IMG/VR virus record: IMGVR_UViG_3300025093_000133
Coordinates: 1 to 22,904 of that record
DNA: 22,904 nucleotides
Reading direction: 5' to 3' (one strand)
DNA from: a virus
The notes under the pieces are model-generated. The model saw only the letters and a list, made by a program, of their open reading frames with translations, was not told the DNA's origin and made no database searches. The translations under genes and the position numbers were made by a program. Below, piece by piece: positions 1,679-21,443 of this stretch (positions within the stretch are counted from its first letter, which is position 1; every line of letters starts with the position of its first letter).

Positions 1679-4039
1679 TTAAACACCCCATATTGTTAAT
1701 ACGTGCCTTCCTTCGCTATCGCCTGTTCCTGATTCAATAGTCCAGCCACGGCTACCGTTAACTGTTGCAGCAATCATTTCACCTGATGGATTATAAAAAC
1801 CAGTATTTAAATCGCCTGTAAAAGTAATGCCTGGATCAGCTTCTGTTCCCCATGGAAATTGCGCTTGTCCTGATAGAACAATTAAATCATTATGTGACCT
1901 TACAGTTCCACTTACTGTTACATCACCACCAATGTTTGCACCACTTGTTACAAAAGCATCACCACTAACACGGAGGTCAGCATCAATAATAATTTGATTA
2001 TTAACGATAAGTTTTCCAAATTCACCTGTTGTAGTTTGTATTGTTGTTCCAGTAATTGTATTTCCTGACAGGTTTATAAAATTCCCATTCGTAGCGTTTA
2101 TGGAAGAACCTGTAATTGTAGTGCCGGTTAGATTTGTAAAGGTTCCATTTGTACTATTAACAGAAGTACCTGTAACAGTTGTGAATATTCCTGTTACAGC
2201 AGTAACGTTGCCAGTTGCAACAATATTATCATCGACTGTTAAACTACCTGATACCAATAAATCTCCACTGACAATTAATCCGCTAACAATATTTAATTCA
2301 TCAAAGGTTACTGTTCCACTTACGACAAGATCACCGCTAATAATTAAATCGTCATTTATAAATCCACTATTAAATACAATGTAATCAATACCGCTTAAAC
2401 TCGTCTCTCCATCACCAGTGATATCGCCAGAAGTAATAGACAAGTCCCCACTAATGGATGTATCACCGCTAATAATTAAATCTTCATTTATAAATCCACT
2501 ATTAAATACAATGTAATCAATACCGCTTAAACTCGTCTCTCCATCACCAGTGATATCGCCAGAAGTAATAGACAAGTCCCCACTAATGGATGTATCACCG
2601 CTAATTTGAACAGTGCCGTCAACAATAAGATTGCCACTGATATTTGTATTACCGATACCAGTAGTGTTACCAGTGACAATAAGATTGCCATTGATATTTG
2701 AATCACCTGTGACATTTAAGTTACCTCCTATTTCAATGTCGTTTACAATATTTAAATCATTACTAACATTTAAATCTTCGCCAATGTTGCCGTTACCGCT
2801 AACGAATAAACCAGTAAAAGTAGCGAAACCTCCTGAGAAAGTAGGTGCAGTAACGATTGTATTAAACGTTCCGCTTTGACCTGTAATTGTTTCACCTGAA
2901 ACAATTCCGGTTATTTCTAAAGGACCTCCGATATAAGTTCCACTAAGTACATATAAATTTTGCAGTACTGTTAAATCACCACTAATCTGCTGGTCACCTG
3001 AAAATTCAAGTTCAACTGCGTTTAAAGTATGGACATTAATAATTCCTGCGTTAATGGTTGTACCAGTAATCGTATCTCCTGAAATATTTTGAAATTCACC
3101 AGAAACGCCGGAAATAAAGTTTGCATTTAAAGTGTCAGTTGTAATGCCACTTGCAACAGTTAAACTTTGAAAATCACCAGAAGTTACTTGAAGGTTTTCA
3201 CCAGTTATTGTTGTTCCGGATAAATTTTGAAAATTACCACTGATTGCATTTACTGTGTTACCAGTAGCCAGTGTAAATAAAACAATATCTCCTGTGATAG
3301 CAGTTCCTGAGATACTGGTAAAAATTCCAGAGGTTACATTTAATTCAGTAACATTAACTAAATCACCCGTAATTGTTGCACCTGAAATAGTTCCTGATGC
3401 ATTGATATTATTAGCGTTTATATTACCGCTAATTGTTACGCCAGAAACAAAAGCAGTACCGACTTCTAAATAATCAAAGTATCCACTAACGGCATCAATT
3501 CCACGGGTTACAGTTAAATCAACTACTGTACCGCTTTGAATTCCTACGCTGTCTCCTGTGATTGTCGTGCCTGAAATTATATCGAAATAACCACTGGCAA
3601 AATCAATAGTGGTTCCGGTAGCAATTGTAAAGTTACCAGAAGTTGCTTCTAAGAATTGTGTATTTACATTTAAAACATCAAGCTGATTAGCACTAATATT
3701 TCCAGTTACAGTTATAGCGCCACCTACTAATAGGTCTTGGCGTAAGATTACATCTTGTTTAAAATCAGATTCTCCGCTGACTAAAAAATTAGATTCTGCA
3801 GTTAAGTCACCACTGATAACTGCATAACCAGAAACAAGAACATTTCCGACTATGAAAGGATCAGTTTCTCCTACGTTAATATAAAATTGATCTAAGTAAG
3901 TGCGAAGACCACTAAAATTAAGTTTTTTATTCCTAAGAGCAGGGTCAATTTCAAAGACCTGTACAAGCGTAACTAGGTCCTGATCTACAATATCAGTCGC
4001 CTCAATAGAGGGGAATTGAGTAATTCTTCTATTTGCCAC
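1679..4039 (-). CDS. Repetitive Ser-Gly-Thr fibre protein, 786 aa, probable tail fibre
   Basis: The N-terminal 55 residues (ITQFPSIEATDIVDQDLVTL...) look like an attachment domain of the kind that docks fibres to a baseplate or tail. Most of the rest is a low-complexity array built from SG and (I/T)TG steps such as SGTTITG and SGDLxVSG. It is very poor in Cys, Met and aromatic residues, which suggests a long beta-structured shaft. Residues about 482-569 are an almost exact tandem duplication of a 44-residue unit. The C-terminus has a GDLNTGFYNPSGE module, also found near the N-terminus of the next gene (1-1640), followed by a short HVLTIWGV end. No enzymatic domain was seen. A TATAAT sits 27 bp upstream of the start (4066-4071). 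Function as a host-contact fibre is inferred from repeat style and neighbour. Confidence 0.8.
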   Translation of the reverse strand: MANRRITQFPSIEATDIVDQDLVTLVQVFEIDPALRNKKLNFSGLRTYLDQFYINVGETDPFIVGNVLVSGYAVISGDLTAESNFLVSGESDFKQDVILRQDLLVGGAITVTGNISANQLDVLNVNTQFLEATSGNFTIATGTTIDFASGYFDIISGTTITGDSVGIQSGTVVDLTVTRGIDAVSGYFDYLEVGTAFVSGVTISGNINANNINASGTISGATITGDLVNVTELNVTSGIFTSISGTAITGDIVLFTLATGNTVNAISGNFQNLSGTTITGENLQVTSGDFQSLTVASGITTDTLNANFISGVSGEFQNISGDTITGTTINAGIINVHTLNAVELEFSGDQQISGDLTVLQNLYVLSGTYIGGPLEITGIVSGETITGQSGTFNTIVTAPTFSGGFATFTGLFVSGNGNIGEDLNVSNDLNIVNDIEIGGNLNVTGDSNINGNLIVTGNTTGIGNTNISGNLIVDGTVQISGDTSISGDLSITSGDITGDGETSLSGIDYIVFNSGFINEDLIISGDTSISGDLSITSGDITGDGETSLSGIDYIVFNSGFINDDLIISGDLVVSGTVTFDELNIVSGLIVSGDLLVSGSLTVDDNIVATGNVTAVTGIFTTVTGTSVNSTNGTFTNLTGTTITGSSINATNGNFINLSGNTITGTTIQTTTGEFGKLIVNNQIIIDADLRVSGDAFVTSGANIGGDVTVSGTVRSHNDLIVLSGQAQFPWGTEADPGITFTGDLNTGFYNPSGEMIAATVNGSRGWTIESGTGDSEGRHVLTIWGV
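2331..2594 (-). repeat. 132-bp tandem duplication inside the fibre gene
   Basis: Two head-to-tail copies (2331-2462 and 2463-2594) are followed by the first ten bases of a third. Copies differ at one base only (2351 G versus 2483 T, changing Asp to Glu). The unit is 44 codons, so the reading frame is kept and the shaft is lengthened by one module. Near-identity at silent positions indicates a very recent duplication or ongoing gene conversion. Confidence 0.95.
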
Positions 4040-7546: not shown

Positions 7547-7909
7547 ATGAACTTTCTTGATTCGTTTATAGAAGGTAATGACGAATTAAAACAACGCATG
7601 GTTACGTTGGATGATTTAGGTCAACCTTTAGACAATGAAGCTAATGATGTTCCGATGTATGACCAATACAATCGTGGATTAGCAGTTACTCAGCAAGATA
7701 TGTCAGATCGTGTTAACTTAGCAATAGATCCAAGGGCGCAACCAAGATGCGGTTTGACGGGAATGATTCCGAGTGCGGAGGAAGGGATGATGGAGGGGGC
7801 AATGCCACAGCCACGTCAGTTAATGGTAGATATGGGTCAGTTCGTACCGGAGGAGACTCAGTTAGCCAAGATGGAACAACGCAGGTTAAGGCAGGGACTG
7901 AATCGTTAA
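7547..7909 (+). CDS. Unrecognised acidic Gln/Met-rich protein, 120 aa
   Basis: The protein begins MNFLDSFIEGNDELKQRM and has no membrane segment or Cys cluster. The N-terminal two thirds are acidic and the end is basic (MEQRRLRQGLNR). The C-terminal half is rich in Met, Pro and Gln. The last 163 bp overlap, in a different frame, the open frame of the DUF3310 protein. Both frames are free of stops across this stretch, so the pair may be a true overlap or a frameshift-linked gene. It is the first gene to the right of a bidirectional -10 palindrome. The function is unknown. Confidence 0.55.
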   Translation: MNFLDSFIEGNDELKQRMVTLDDLGQPLDNEANDVPMYDQYNRGLAVTQQDMSDRVNLAIDPRAQPRCGLTGMIPSAEEGMMEGAMPQPRQLMVDMGQFVPEETQLAKMEQRRLRQGLNR

Positions 7910-8190
7910 AAGATTTGTTTGACCCGATTGAATCAACGATAGATTGCCCAGGGGGAGTTTGCCCTGTACCTTGGGCGACAAAAATAGATAATGTGAATCA
8001 TCCATCACACTATACGGATGGTAGCATTGAATGTATTGAAGCAATAGAAGCGCAGCTTACAAGGGAAGAATATAGAGGTTATTTGAAAGGAAACATTGCG
8101 AAATACGTATGGAGGGAAAACCATAAGGGAGGTGTTGAATCCCTCAAAAAAGCCCAGTGGTATTTAGATAAGTTAGTGAAATTAGAATAA
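7747..8190 (+). CDS. DUF3310 (SaV-like) protein, possible nucleotide kinase
   Basis: Residues 82-147 match the DUF3310 pattern: VNHPSHYT, then IECIEAIEAQLTREEYRGYLKGNIAKYVWR, then GGVESLKKAQWYLDKLV. The family is common in phages. I recall it as including T7 gp1.7, a dGMP/dTMP kinase; treat that link as recollection. The start is uncertain. The only Met in the frame is at 7747, deep inside the preceding gene. A TTG at 7915, six bases after that gene's stop, would give a 91-aa protein, closer to the usual family size. The N-terminal part in the overlap (GGRDDGGGNATATS...) is low complexity, as expected of an alternative frame. A CPGGVCP motif lies just before the domain. Confidence 0.75.
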   Translation: MRFDGNDSECGGRDDGGGNATATSVNGRYGSVRTGGDSVSQDGTTQVKAGTESLKDLFDPIESTIDCPGGVCPVPWATKIDNVNHPSHYTDGSIECIEAIEAQLTREEYRGYLKGNIAKYVWRENHKGGVESLKKAQWYLDKLVKLE

Positions 8191-8210: not shown

Positions 8211-8561
8211 ATGGCTGAAAAAAGAAAACCAAGGAATACTGCTGCTGCGAAAGCCAGGCAGAGTGTTAGAGCTAAAACTAAAACAGCCACTGGTAAGAGC
8301 CCAAGAAAAGCTCCTGATAAAGTAAGGAAGGCAACTAATCAAGCTTCTAAAACTGCTTCCAGGGTTGCAAGACGTGAAGCCAAAGGCAAGGAAGTTAGTG
8401 ATGGAATGCGGGCACGCTTAGAAAAGCGTATTGCTCGTCTTGAGAAGCGCCTTGATACTGCGACTAAGGCTTCTGATGAAAAAAAAGCTGAGAGCGCAGG
8501 AAAGTTTGAATCTGCCAAAGAAAAAATGGCTAAACTTCGTGAAATGCGTAAGAAAAAGTAA
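8211..8561 (+). CDS. Lys/Arg/Ala-rich histone-H1-like protein, 116 aa
   Basis: The protein is extremely basic. Its disordered N-terminal half is rich in Lys, Ala, Arg, Thr and Pro (NTAAAKARQSVRAKTKTATGK). The C-terminal helical half (about residues 62-116, RARLEKRIARLEKRLDT...) has heptad-like Leu/Ile spacing typical of a short coiled coil. The composition resembles DNA-condensing H1-like tails, so DNA compaction or nucleoid binding is a fair guess. No catalytic residues are visible. The start is the ATG at 8211, with no obvious Shine-Dalgarno. The stop overlaps the next ATG by one base (TAATG). Confidence 0.7.
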   Translation: MAEKRKPRNTAAAKARQSVRAKTKTATGKSPRKAPDKVRKATNQASKTASRVARREAKGKEVSDGMRARLEKRIARLEKRLDTATKASDEKKAESAGKFESAKEKMAKLREMRKKK

Positions 8562-8701
8562 TGGCTAATCCGGATTATTACGACCTTCGTAAACTGCGGT
8601 CCTTGGTGGAAAAGCCTAAGGGTAAACCAAAGGCTAATCCGAATACTGCTGCTTTTAATAAAAAACCAATGAAGAAAAAGGGTCAGCCAAACAAGGGTTG
8701 A
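8561..8701 (+). CDS. Very small basic protein, 46 aa
   Basis: The start overlaps the previous stop (TAATG) and the frame runs 46 codons to TGA at 8699-8701. The protein begins MANPDYYDLRKLRSLVEK and continues with a Lys/Pro/Asn-rich tail ending KKKGQPNKG. The overlapping start, the same strand and the shared basic character make it a credible coupled gene. Its last 19 bp overlap the end of the convergent NblA-like gene. The function is unknown; it resembles the 38-aa basic protein at 9701-9817 in composition. Confidence 0.6.
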   Translation: MANPDYYDLRKLRSLVEKPKGKPKANPNTAAFNKKPMKKKGQPNKG

Positions 8702-8982
8702 TCCTCATCTTCGTCTGGATCCAGATCATCCTGGCTCATCATTGTTAATGCAAGTTGAGCCAGTTCTAAATCTGTCGGGATATCGAATTCGAGTTCAATA
8801 TCCTCTGCTTGTAGCATGTCTCTGATGGCTTGGTTCTCTACAAGTCTTTGGTGGTAAAGATTTAAAAGGGCTGCATGGAGCTGATCCCATGTCATTTCAT
8901 CTGCTGCTAATTCAGCTTTTCGCATGGAGAGTTGTAGATGCAAAGGCATATCAACTTCTCTTGTAGTTCCAAAATCTCCCAT
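8683..8982 (-). CDS. NblA-like protein, candidate phycobilisome degradation adaptor
   Basis: Residues 14-60 follow the NblA pattern: a short polar stretch, LQLSMR (NblA has xxFSIR), MTWDQLHAALLNLYHQ (NblA has MSxxQAxxFLxxLYxQ), then VENQAIRDMLQ (NblA has VxREAxYxxLLK). NblA is a roughly 60-aa two-helix protein that brings the phycobilisome to the Clp protease. Phage copies are known from freshwater Microcystis phage and have been reported for marine cyanophages. This protein is longer (99 aa), with an 11-residue N-terminal extension and a strongly acidic tail (DDLDPDEDED) not typical of host NblA. It lies directly downstream of the endolysin gene. The match is by eye over about 45 residues, so a look-alike helical hairpin is possible. 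Confidence 0.5.
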   Translation of the reverse strand: MGDFGTTREVDMPLHLQLSMRKAELAADEMTWDQLHAALLNLYHQRLVENQAIRDMLQAEDIELEFDIPTDLELAQLALTMMSQDDLDPDEDEDQPLFG

Positions 8983-9006: not shown

Positions 9007-9672
9007 TTAATCCCAAGCGTTAAAAATTTGGTCTAATTCCAAATCAGTAATATCCGGACAAGGATCTGAATCGACATCAAAATCATTAGCAAACTCTGAC
9101 AGTATGTAAGGGTTAACATTCTCTTGTAATTTCCTAATAGCCCGAACTTCATGCGGCGCTGCACTATAATTCCTAAATGCTTTTAAAAGAATATCGTCAG
9201 AGGTCCATGGATTTGCATCTAGTTCTTGTGTAAACAGTTTTACTTCTTCTCTTCTGCGATCAATTAAACCGCCGATAACCTGGTGGTTTTCATCAAAAAT
9301 CCAACGTGTGATCTCGTGGGATGCTGCAAGGTAATCATTGCGTTCACAGCAATCGATAATAGAACTATATAAAAAGGACTCCCATCCTACTGAATGAGCA
9401 AAAGATATCAAAGCATTAAGCATTGATCTATCAAGGCCTAGATTCTGCTTTTTTATTTCATGGGAAATAATATTGATTTCATGTAATAGATATTCAATTG
9501 CTTTCTCTTTTGTGCATCGATGGCCTTTTTTTACAGGAGTGCCATCTGGATAAAAGTTTGTACCATAGCCAAGTGTATAAGGCTCTTCTCCTGTGCCATA
9601 ATCACAATAGGCTTTTTCATGAAAACCTTCAAAAGTTTTAATCAGCTTTACAGCATCTTTATAAGGGTACAT
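9007..9672 (-). CDS. Endolysin, GH24 (T4-type) lysozyme
   Basis: This enzyme would cleave the glycan strands of peptidoglycan to release progeny. Residues 1-150 fit phage lysozymes. The catalytic triad of T4 lysozyme (Glu11, Asp20, Thr26) maps to Glu15 in FEGFHEKAY, Asp24, and Thr33 in YTLGYGT, with a six-residue insertion between the last two. The later segment LNALISFAHSVG matches the family's conserved helix. A C-terminal extension of about 60 residues (from about 160) is acidic and unrecognised. No signal peptide or anchor was seen, so a holin is probably needed; none was identified. The gene lies between a small basic gene and the NblA-like gene on the same strand. The stretch upstream is AT-rich with a TATAAA-like -10. 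Confidence 0.88.
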   Translation of the reverse strand: MYPYKDAVKLIKTFEGFHEKAYCDYGTGEEPYTLGYGTNFYPDGTPVKKGHRCTKEKAIEYLLHEINIISHEIKKQNLGLDRSMLNALISFAHSVGWESFLYSSIIDCCERNDYLAASHEITRWIFDENHQVIGGLIDRRREEVKLFTQELDANPWTSDDILLKAFRNYSAAPHEVRAIRKLQENVNPYILSEFANDFDVDSDPCPDITDLELDQIFNAWD

Positions 9673-9853: not shown

Positions 9854-10153
9854 TTACCATTTTTCTTTATCCGCCCAGTAGGCTGCTGACATCTTTCCTT
9901 TAGCAATATTTTTACTATGACGTGCTTTAAAAGATGCGCGTTTCTTTTTCATCTTATCTGATTCACCTGCCTTAGGTTTACCTGCAGTTTTTGCACCTTG
10001 CTCTCCAAACCTGATGAGTTTTTCTTTACCGCCTTCTTTGGCGAGGACCATGTGAGACTTAGTAGGATGATTAGGAGTCCTTACTGGCTTGTTTGGTTTA
10101 AGACTATCCTTTGCCCTTTTAGCTGCGCTAGCAGCTTTCCTTTGTTTAGACAT
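9854..10153 (-). CDS. Small basic cyanophage-type protein, 99 aa
   Basis: The protein is Lys/Arg-rich throughout. Its segments HMVLAKEGGKEKLIRFGEQGA (about 34-54), AGESDKMKKKRASFKARH (about 62-79) and KGKMSAAYWADKEKW at the end I associate with small conserved proteins of marine T4-like cyanophages; I cannot name the family with certainty. It is probably a nucleic-acid-binding or virion-associated protein. No membrane segment or Cys is present. The start at 10153 lies just downstream of TATAAATA on the minus strand (10161-10168), which is the T4-type late promoter sequence. Confidence 0.75.
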   Translation of the reverse strand: MSKQRKAASAAKRAKDSLKPNKPVRTPNHPTKSHMVLAKEGGKEKLIRFGEQGAKTAGKPKAGESDKMKKKRASFKARHSKNIAKGKMSAAYWADKEKW

Positions 10154-13837: not shown

Positions 13838-15550
13838 TTAGTAGTTAGTACCTATGGGGAATTCCCAGGGTTTTACGTCGTAGTTGGGACTATTACCTGC
13901 TGAAGTTGGAACCTGCCCAGATACTGGTGCATATCTTTGATCGTCTTTATCTATCATAATGAAATTTTGTAATTGAATAAATTCTGTAGGAATATTTATC
14001 AAACGCTGAATCATCGGGAAGACCATTGGTGACTGGAAGTTATAGGGAGGAACGTCCATGTAACTTAAACCATAGGTTGTTAAGCGTTCAAAATATTTAC
14101 GCTGTTGTTTTCTTGTCTTATCAACCAATCTTTCTTCCCATTCGCTAATGAGTCCTACTTCTACAGGAAAGTCAGAAGGTTCATTTGGAAATACTCCATC
14201 TTGATAACGCATTGCATAAATGTGTTTGCAATAGCGGTATTGATCAAGAGTATATGTCCAGTTATCTGTAATTTCTGTAATAGTATCTCCACTTTGTTTG
14301 TAATCTCCATAAATTGCTAATCCTTCAGCCACTGCATTTGGATTTGGTTTATCTCCAAAACCTCTTCTATATAAGCCGCCAAAGTCGTCAAAAACTTCTG
14401 GTTGTTGCCTATAAAGTTTTTTTGGATCTCTTGCATCTTTACCTGATTCAGAAAGAGAAACACCCGAGGTATTGAAATCAGTAGGCTCTCCACTTGGATA
14501 AACAATAGTTAACAATCGATTATTAACAAGTCCACTTGTAATTTCTGTCTGAGCAGCATTCAAAAAATTACCTTTAAATTTAATTTCTTCATAGCGTCCT
14601 GGTTTAACTGTTGCTGCTCTTTGTTTAAAAAATAAAGGCTTTTTCTTTAAGCCAAGACTTGATAAGTATGTGTAATTTCTTCTTGTAAAATCTTGGCAAG
14701 TACAACAGTACCTAGCGCCAAGCTGAAGGAATCTACCTGATTCAAATGGAATTCTAGAGGGTGTTTGAAGAACACCGTCAAGTGTTGCTTGAGTTGAGCC
14801 TAGTTTTTCAATTTGAAGGATACCTTGATATTGATCAACATTAACTAAAACAGCTTGTACAAATCCAAATCTTCTGCCTGTTTGAGGATCTCTTGTTTCT
14901 TTATCAATCGGTGTACCAGAGACAGTTAAAATTGTGTCTTCTAATGTATCTCCATTGATGGGTTTTGCTTCTCTTCCATCAGGTAGTTCAACAAATAAAG
15001 GAGGAGGTACTGGGCCACTTATTCCTGATATTGTGACTGAACTAAATGTACCGCTTAATTGTATATACCAATAATTTGTATTATCTTGTCCTTTGCCTAA
15101 GAATAATTTGTCAGGGGGAGCCTCGCCTGATACTGCAAGTCTTACACCTTGTTGATCTTCTAGGTTGTCAAATCTTAAATTTCCTGCTCTTGTAACACCG
15201 CACCATTGCATTCCCAATTCTTTATTTTCACTTGCATAACCTTGAATTGCGCCTGTAATTACCGGGCTTCTATTTCCAATGATGTCATTCCCACTTGTAA
15301 AAGGAATATTGTATTCAAAGTTATAAAAGAACGGCCTCAGGACGCCATTAGCAGCTCCAAGCTCCCATCCTCTTCTCCACCTTGACCAAGTTGATTCACG
15401 GTTACTTGTATATAAAGAATCTGGAACGCTACCTCCAAATTCACCTTTAACAGGTGCTACTTTAAATTTTTTAATCTCTGGCTTACCGATATCAGAAAAG
15501 GAGGAACTTCCGAAATTTCCGAAGTTTCCTCCTGGCCTTCTTCTTGCCAT
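13838..15550 (-). CDS. Probable virion structural protein, 570 aa
   Basis: The N-terminus is basic and Gly-rich (MARRRPGGNFGNFGSSSF). The body is mixed alpha/beta with Ser-Gly-Thr surface-like stretches near 165-180 (SGTFSSVTISGISG). There is a CCTC cluster near residue 285 (ARYCCTCQDF) and an aromatic-rich region near 430-445 (YRYCKHIYAMRYQDG). The C-terminus is Pro/Tyr rich and contains VPPYNFQSPMVFP. No known fold or enzyme motif is recognised. It lies one base downstream of the 259-aa gene in the leftward virion series and is the last gene of that series before the regulatory island. Tail or neck function is possible; this is context only. Confidence 0.65.
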   Translation of the reverse strand: MARRRPGGNFGNFGSSSFSDIGKPEIKKFKVAPVKGEFGGSVPDSLYTSNRESTWSRWRRGWELGAANGVLRPFFYNFEYNIPFTSGNDIIGNRSPVITGAIQGYASENKELGMQWCGVTRAGNLRFDNLEDQQGVRLAVSGEAPPDKLFLGKGQDNTNYWYIQLSGTFSSVTISGISGPVPPPLFVELPDGREAKPINGDTLEDTILTVSGTPIDKETRDPQTGRRFGFVQAVLVNVDQYQGILQIEKLGSTQATLDGVLQTPSRIPFESGRFLQLGARYCCTCQDFTRRNYTYLSSLGLKKKPLFFKQRAATVKPGRYEEIKFKGNFLNAAQTEITSGLVNNRLLTIVYPSGEPTDFNTSGVSLSESGKDARDPKKLYRQQPEVFDDFGGLYRRGFGDKPNPNAVAEGLAIYGDYKQSGDTITEITDNWTYTLDQYRYCKHIYAMRYQDGVFPNEPSDFPVEVGLISEWEERLVDKTRKQQRKYFERLTTYGLSYMDVPPYNFQSPMVFPMIQRLINIPTEFIQLQNFIMIDKDDQRYAPVSGQVPTSAGNSPNYDVKPWEFPIGTNY

Positions 15551-16366: not shown

Positions 16367-17053
16367 TTAGCCAATGTATCCTTGCAGATATTGCATTGGG
16401 TTTAGATATCCACTTCCCATTCCAGTGGCTTGTGCAAATAGTAATGGATCCAAGGTTGGATTTAAAGCTGCATCAGGATCAATAATTCCCGCTGGTTGTC
16501 TTGTATTTTTTCTAATTAATTTTTTTAATTCTGATGCTAAAAGATTATCTACATAACCTGAAAGGAATGATTTTTCTTTTTCTTTTGTTTTATCTTCTGT
16601 CTGATTACTTGGTATGGAATCAGGAACATCGGTATTTGTAGTATTGTTTTGAGGTACGTTATTAAAGGTTTGCGGACTATCAATTGCTGTATCTAAAGCA
16701 GCTTGAGATGATTCAGGTAGAAATTTTTTATATGATTGATTTGTATATGCTCCCCAAGCGTTCAATCCTTGTTGGTCATAAATAGCTTTAGCGACCCTTA
16801 AATTAGTCATCGGGTCATATAATTCTTCATTTGATTCAAGACCAAATTGACGACGTCTTTCTGGTCCTATGTCACCAATCATATTGACCTGAGTTAAACC
16901 ATAAGATAAATCTGGCCCTCTGGGATTAAATGCATCTGATCTGCCTCCGGATTCTGCCATTGTGATAGCAGTCATTGTTGGGATGTCACTCTCTGGAAAT
17001 CCCGCTTGTCGCAGCATCTTTGCGATTTCAGCTTTCGTGTAAACCTTAGACAT
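16367..17053 (-). CDS. Virion-associated lytic transglycosylase-domain protein
   Basis: Residues 1-110 form a lysozyme-like transglycosylase (SLT) domain. It has TAITMAESGGRSDAFNPRG with Glu34 as the likely catalytic acid, then YGLTQVNMIG and LRVAKAIYDQQGLNAWGAYTN. Such domains locally open peptidoglycan during DNA entry. The C-terminal half is a low-complexity linker rich in Asn, Thr and Pro, then a KEKEKSFLSGYVDNLL segment and a hydrophobic MGSGYLNPMQYLQGYIG end. Its place in the structural series (start overlapping the upstream stop as TAATG) argues for a virion component, not an endolysin. The endolysin is a separate gene at 9007-9672. Confidence 0.82.
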   Translation of the reverse strand: MSKVYTKAEIAKMLRQAGFPESDIPTMTAITMAESGGRSDAFNPRGPDLSYGLTQVNMIGDIGPERRRQFGLESNEELYDPMTNLRVAKAIYDQQGLNAWGAYTNQSYKKFLPESSQAALDTAIDSPQTFNNVPQNNTTNTDVPDSIPSNQTEDKTKEKEKSFLSGYVDNLLASELKKLIRKNTRQPAGIIDPDAALNPTLDPLLFAQATGMGSGYLNPMQYLQGYIG

Positions 17054-20279: not shown

Positions 20280-21443
20280 TCAGACCACACCGTCATCAGA
20301 GACGAAGCTAAACGCATTGGTGATGAAGTCCTTGTTCAGGATCTCGAAACCAGCGTAGAGCTGCCAGATAAGAATAATGAAACGGCTGAAGTCATCGTTG
20401 TTGTTGATGAGCACCTGAGCGTTAGGACCGCCGATGCCAACACCAATAGACTGAGGGCCAAAGAAATAACCTTGGGCGACTTCTTCAGAAGCGTAGGTAC
20501 TGCCGTCGTCGAAAGAAGCGGTGACGTTCTTGATTGGGAAGTTGGTGGACTCGAAGAACTTAACGCCCTCGAATTGAACACCAGTAGGCATCACAGGCTC
20601 ACCAGCCAGGAAGTAGCCTTGTCCAGCTTGGGGACCCATGTAGAAGCTGGAGTTGTTAGGCATCATGGGGTTAGCCATGTACATGCCTTGTCCGGGATTG
20701 CCTGCATAGCGGGCGATCTCGCGGAAGTCTTCGTCACGACGCAGATGCATCATGAAGACGGGGTCGCAAATACAACGATACAGACCGTCAGCAAAAGTCG
20801 GAACGTTGCGCTTACGCATGTCCTTCACAACCTCCAGGAGGTCAGTGCGGACAGAGAACTGCTGAACTTGTGCAGTGTACTCAGCAGCAGTGTAGGAGAT
20901 ACGGCCTTGTGAATCCTTGGCCTTATCACCAGCGAAGTAGTAACCACCCTGGGTAGAATCAGACTGACCCTGAGCTTCAGACTTGGCGAGTTCATCAAGG
21001 AACACGCGGTCACGCCAACGGCGGTAGTCATCCAACAGAGTCAGAGAGCCGATGCTCTGGTGGAACATATTGAGATTACCGGTGTCTAACAGCAGTCGCT
21101 GTGCAGTCACCAGGGTCTCACGGGCGATTTTGAAAGTACTGGGTTGAGTGGGATCACCAGGATCAGCAGGTCCTGTGTATTCCTTCATCACAACAAGCAC
21201 CTTTTCCTTGGTGATGTTGCGGCTGTTAGCAGTACCGATAGTCTGGTCAGCAATACGCTCACGGCTGTCCTTCGTACCGGGGGATCCCCAGAATTTGTAG
21301 CGGTCTAACTGAACAGTTTGGCCAGGTTGTGCGGTGAAGTCATGAACCACAACAGGCTCACAAGCCATCTCACAGACATAAGCCGGATGGGGACGGTATA
21401 ACTCCGCACCCAAAATTTTGGGAAAATCGTTGTCTAAAAACAC
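20280..21443 (-). CDS. Probable major capsid protein, 387 aa
   Basis: The start is GTG at 21443 with a strong GGAGG eleven bases upstream; no better ATG is available. The N-terminal half contains QPGQTVQLDRYKFWGSPGTKDSRER (about 39-63) followed by VLVVMKEYTGPADP and a helical region with LLLDTGNLNMFHQSIGSLTLLDDYRRWRDRV. This looks like the N-arm, E-loop and spine-helix order of HK97-fold coats of the P22/N4 kind. A conserved-looking ICDPVFMMHLRRDEDFREIARY follows near residue 225. Codon use is strongly biased to C-ending codons, as expected for the most abundant protein. Upstream genes look like scaffold and membrane-type proteins. The assignment is from order, size, codon bias and pattern. 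Confidence 0.7.
   Translation of the reverse strand: MFLDNDFPKILGAELYRPHPAYVCEMACEPVVVHDFTAQPGQTVQLDRYKFWGSPGTKDSRERIADQTIGTANSRNITKEKVLVVMKEYTGPADPGDPTQPSTFKIARETLVTAQRLLLDTGNLNMFHQSIGSLTLLDDYRRWRDRVFLDELAKSEAQGQSDSTQGGYYFAGDKAKDSQGRISYTAAEYTAQVQQFSVRTDLLEVVKDMRKRNVPTFADGLYRCICDPVFMMHLRRDEDFREIARYAGNPGQGMYMANPMMPNNSSFYMGPQAGQGYFLAGEPVMPTGVQFEGVKFFESTNFPIKNVTASFDDGSTYASEEVAQGYFFGPQSIGVGIGGPNAQVLINNNDDFSRFIILIWQLYAGFEILNKDFITNAFSFVSDDGVV

Follow-up and report, generated by a model that had tools for sequence, protein, structure and literature searches.

A small gene beside the endolysin of a cyanophage of the S-EIV1 lineage encodes a protein whose family is homologous to NblA, a relationship that profile comparisons indicate to be distant but real. 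NblA is the adaptor by which cyanobacteria destroy their light-harvesting antennae. The gene looks like a core gene of S-EIV1-like cyanophages, and we think it fairly probable that its product is a divergent, tailed NblA-type proteolysis adaptor, encoded by a core late gene of these phages and acting on phycobilisomes. The window, that is, the whole stretch of DNA analysed, is 22,904 nucleotides long and is a 22.9-kb virus record. The following features of the window are used below:

8683..8982, minus strand: NblA-like protein, whole ORF including the stop codon (ORF listing and translation, relatives).
8809..8949, minus strand: NblA-type helix-loop-helix core, residues 12–58 (Pfam NblA at 17–58; 1ojh aligns to 8–59; predicted helices 14–28 and 32–59).
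8737..8808, minus strand: conserved C-terminal extension, residues 59–82, with a third predicted helix at 71–85 (column counts, model, rough dN/dS of ~0.27).
8686..8736, minus strand: acidic, probably disordered tail, residues 83–99, ending near a Phe (composition in 103 homologues; pLDDT < 50).
9007..9672, minus strand: endolysin, a phage lysozyme (PF00959, E 1.3e-18; phrog_7 endolysin, E 2.1e-25).
20280..21443, minus strand: major head protein, which marks the late module and belongs to the gene run of the NblA-like ORF (phrog_1357, E 5.1e-14).

The NblA-like ORF (8683–8982) starts with ATG on the minus strand and encodes 99 aa, in agreement with the preliminary description, which also placed it beside an endolysin. 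This neighbour is a phage lysozyme by both PF00959 and phrog_7. It lies directly upstream, with a gap of 24 bp from its stop codon to the start of the NblA-like gene, and no promoter-like site was found in this gap. The NblA-like gene is the last in the minus-strand run that holds the lysozyme and major head protein genes, and at its 3′-end it shares bases with a convergent ORF on the plus strand (8561–8701). Since the gene ends this run and the gap is without a promoter-like site, late expression together with the lysozyme is plausible. The co-expression with lysis genes suggested earlier would fit this arrangement.

The window has several other ORFs of note. Two small, very Lys/Arg-rich proteins (8211–8561, plus strand; 9854–10153, minus strand) flank the lysozyme region, and a Pfam search with the former gave no match. 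A second lysozyme-like domain (SLT_3, E 1.3e-10) at 16367–17053 on the minus strand lies among late structural genes and is possibly a virion-associated lysin. The ORF at 7747–8190 (plus strand) encodes a DUF3310 protein, named 'nucleotide kinase' in PHROGs; a long unmatched stretch precedes the domain, and the true start may be inside the ORF. The ORF at 1679–4039 (minus strand) encodes a 786-aa, tail-fibre-like protein with repeated SG-rich units (SGDxxISG...), which had only weak PHROG matches.

The window protein alone scored 17.6 bits against PF04485 (18.7 in the genome scan), below the curated cut-off of 25, and its sole match in the PDB was 1ojh, the NblA of Anabaena, at E 0.68. In a Pfam search of 39 family members, NblA was dominant (22 of 39 at E ≤ 0.01, best E 8.9e-6), and other families appeared once each. 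When the NblA model was run over six-frame translations of the genomes of 15 related phages, the NblA-like gene was the best match in 11; in the other four, the model had no match at this gene. Two relatives exceeded the PF04485 cut-off (25.6 vs. 25 bits), so the family straddles the line. The family profile searched against all PDB sequences retrieved 1ojh at E 2.3e-4 (5e-4 in another run), and the next match, at E 1.2, was unrelated. The hhalign comparison of the family with host NblA reached 92% probability (score 38.4, E 5.2e-7) and was ungapped over 52 columns, against a maximum of 14% and a score of 21.2 in 200 column shuffles. These profile results show that the NblA pattern over about 45 residues, first noticed from the sequence alone, is more than chance, and the profile–profile comparison suggested in the preliminary description came out in its favour. 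An NCBIfam search was uninformative.

Residues 9–58 of the window protein align to NblA without a gap. Over 46 aligned columns, its identity to canonical NblAs was 9–28%, that of a better-scoring relative (L057) was 20–33%, and canonical NblAs were 15–37% identical among themselves. We do not class the window protein as an ordinary NblA, since its score is below the curated threshold and its length is different (99 aa vs. about 60 aa, which is typical of NblA and not strictly defining).

The likeness to cyanobacterial NblA (PF04485, 1ojh) includes L..Q[LF]..R close to the beginning of helix 1 and, at the loop, M-[ST]-x-[DE]-Q, and the surroundings of the loop and second helix track NblA closely. 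In the NblA motif L-x-x-E-Q-[QE]-F-x-x-R, the family retains the Leu, the second Gln, the Phe or Leu, and the Arg; the Glu is retained in 45 of 103 homologues and Leu stands in place of the first Gln. The window protein reads LHLQLSMR at this motif, so the EQ of LxxEQ[QE]F, present in cyanobacterial NblA, is lost (LHLQL). A Gln of the window protein aligns with Lys53 of Anabaena NblA.

The full-length model of the protein has helices at 14–28, 32–59 and 71–85 and disordered ends, with a mean pLDDT of 68. The model of the core alone (a monomer, pLDDT 89) comprises a short helix (9–23, 15 residues), a three-residue loop and a long helix (27–54, 28 residues). The two-helix hairpin expected for an NblA is thus predicted in the core, and a helix-loop-helix is the arrangement reported for NblA (PMC7966870, PMC4103541). 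Foldseek searches with the full-length model and the core model retrieved no NblA structure, a negative result that carries little weight for so small a monomer of two helices; VIA searches with the same two models found nothing.

The preliminary description spoke of an N-terminal extension and an acidic tail. The former amounts to just about five residues relative to Anabaena NblA, since residue 9 aligns with residue 4. The true addition to NblA is about 40 C-terminal residues, absent from host NblA, which consist of a conserved helix, FDIPTDLELAQLA, and the acidic tail that follows it. E60, P69, E73 and L77 are invariant in the 103 homologues. The tail is rich in Asp/Glu as described, with approximately nine acidic residues among the last 20, and a Phe lies within the last four residues in 103/103 homologues. 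The tails of a few deeper relatives end differently, in SFL or PVG. The dN/dS values were ~0.11 for the core, ~0.27 for the extension and ~0.53 for the tail, all rough because synonymous changes were near saturation. They indicate purifying selection on the core and a tail that is loosely constrained in sequence, whose character is conserved. We propose that the third helix together with the acidic, Phe-bearing tail forms an additional docking or regulatory element. The suggestion of the preliminary description that the tail may change the protease partner is speculative.

The window belongs to the lineage of cyanophage S-EIV1. Its order of HNH nuclease, large protein, small proteins, lysozyme and NblA-like gene is the same in the S-EIV1 genome (KJ410740). 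Among annotated phages, tblastn matched one record, Synechococcus phage S-EIVl (S-EIV1), with 60% identity; a megablast search of phage records with the window returned nothing. The direct orthologue in S-EIV1 (AHV82245.1) was deposited as a 'hypothetical protein' and adjoins the S-EIV1 lysozyme; its tail is longer than that of the window protein and ends RKELAPF. S-EIV1 infects Synechococcus, which points to cyanobacterial hosts. In IMG/VR, at least 463 stretches encode relatives; further ones came from a scan that used the S-EIV1 sequence. A total of 103 distinct full-length homologous proteins (93–105 aa) were recovered. A scan of genome contigs found two phage contigs, both assigned to MAGs, and no host gene. 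The phage contigs L084 and L085, which carry the NblA-like gene, were placed in MAGs with the labels Puniceicoccaceae and Euryarchaeota; they are probably misbinned cyanophage DNA.

So that the NblA-like gene did not decide which loci were sampled, an unrelated late gene (13838–15550) was used to fetch 80 of them. A locus was judgeable if it included the lysozyme and extended 500 bp or more past it; 17 of the 80 stop short of the lysozyme and two end too soon. In every one of the 61 judgeable loci, the NblA-like gene immediately adjoins the lysozyme and has the same orientation; some of the contigs are near-identical, so the loci are not fully independent. This points to a core gene and not to an auxiliary gene present only now and then, whereas the preliminary description treated it as an odd accessory gene. 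A weak hli-type (high-light-inducible) match lies no more than 1 kb away from the NblA-like gene, on the opposite strand, in the related genome G002 (31194–32049; contig of L015 and L185). Such matches were found in 6 of 11 related genomes, every one under the cut-off of the hli family.

Phage NblA genes are known from Ma-LMM01, PaV-LD, marine cyanopodoviruses, S-TIM5 and S-SCSM1 (PMC9602691). The NblAs of the freshwater cyanophages Ma-LMM01 and PaV-LD resemble the present family in being phage-borne and in having the same hairpin region. The Pfam model gives them 52 and 45 bits, they lack the C-terminal extension of the present family, and the nblA of Ma-LMM01 overlaps nrdA (PMC4103541), whereas the neighbour in the S-EIV1-like family is the lysozyme. 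A tblastn search with Anabaena NblA found nothing in phage records at E 0.1, so the phage NblAs were reached via the Pfam model. An NblA function in cyanophages has also been proposed for the marine cyanophage 'NblA' genes (S-TIM5, S-SCSM1 ORF237 and cyanopodoviruses; PMC9602691). The genomes of S-TIM5, S-SCSM1, P-SSP7 and Syn5 gave zero matches to PF04485 or to the S-EIV1-like family at E ≤ 1. Common ancestry with S-SCSM1 ORF237 (54 aa) was considered and is unsupported, as hhalign gave no alignment. By these searches, the S-EIV1-like family stands far nearer to canonical NblA than do the marine cyanophage 'NblA' genes tested. The table of Nishimura et al. for the S-EIV1 group contains hli and ptoX and no nblA (PMC5332604), and an earlier mention elsewhere is possible. 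What is new is the S-EIV1-like tailed family as a variant of the known phage NblAs, with the proviso that an earlier assignment may exist elsewhere.

The main rival to an adaptor acting on phycobilisomes is an NblA-derived adaptor with changed cargo, which would bring another host or phage protein, such as a lysis-timing component, to a Clp protease late in infection. It holds this place because the gene looks like a core gene and the extension is conserved. Typical auxiliary metabolic genes have a patchy spread, whereas the NblA-like gene is universal beside the lysozyme, which counts against an adaptor acting on phycobilisomes. So do the low score of the window protein with PF04485, the lost EQ, the Gln opposite Lys53 and the four related genomes in which the NblA model had no match at this gene. 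The invariant residues of the extension and the partial loss of the NblA motif point the same way. However, the core still scores best with NblA, the loop and second-helix residues are close to those of NblA, and no known case of such an adaptor was found in this analysis. We regard a change of cargo as possible but rather unlikely. A related, equally tentative idea keeps the NblA adaptor and makes it an obligatory, late, tailed class, in which the third helix and Phe tail would redirect the choice of protease partner or cargo and thereby couple the removal of the antenna or another host complex to lysis.

The protein could also be a helical hairpin with no relation to NblA, for instance a small protein that belongs to the virion or helps in lysis or assembly, whose NblA likeness arose by convergence of short amphipathic helices. 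The helices are short and simple, the neighbourhood is one of structural genes, and 5 of 19 members had weak matches to a PHROG tail assembly chaperone (best E 0.0045). The profile statistics, however, are significant and specific to NblA, and the alignment is ungapped across the whole length of NblA, which makes convergence improbable. The PHROG matches, including those to tail assembly chaperone and SSB, were weak and inconsistent among members and were rejected as assignments. It is very improbable that the protein is a DNA-metabolism partner whose acidic Pro-Phe tail mimics the C-terminal tip of SSB and docks on replication or recombination enzymes: tails such as DDDDLQPF, EEEYIPF and DVTPF among the homologues do resemble the SSB tip DDDIPF (PMC5872125), and the SSBs of two related phages (L254, 1249–2112; L257, 1219–2100) end NDSKEPF and TDDENAPF, but residues follow the Phe in the window's own clade (PLFG, PFFG), deep relatives end differently, the tail sequence is weakly constrained and the gene is grouped with late genes.

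For the preferred reading, a divergent NblA-type adaptor acting on phycobilisomes, the following course of infection can be proposed. The adaptor would be produced late, together with the lysozyme. Its N-terminal PLxxQ[LF]xxR stretch would bind the host ClpC chaperone, and its helix-loop-helix core would bind phycobiliproteins. The dismantled antenna could supply amino acids for virions, and light damage before lysis would be reduced. The NblA of known systems is reported to have a ClpC-binding motif near the N-terminus and a phycobiliprotein-binding motif near the C-terminus (PMC4103541), and phage NblAs of other lineages were reported to cause phycobilin loss upon expression in cyanobacteria (PMC9602691). 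By analogy, we would expect ClpC binding, phycobiliprotein binding and bleaching, and from the NblA homology alone we infer that the phage may dismantle the antenna.

Phage NblA genes are usually taken as optional auxiliary metabolic genes, and here the gene looks core-like and linked to lysis. The S-EIV1 lineage is widespread and has a cultured member, S-EIV1, in which the gene stands as 'hypothetical'. The conserved tail offers a natural variant for asking how NblA selects protease and cargo. If the NblA-like activity is true, antenna demolition would be part of the basic infection programme of S-EIV1-like phages, which is testable in culture.
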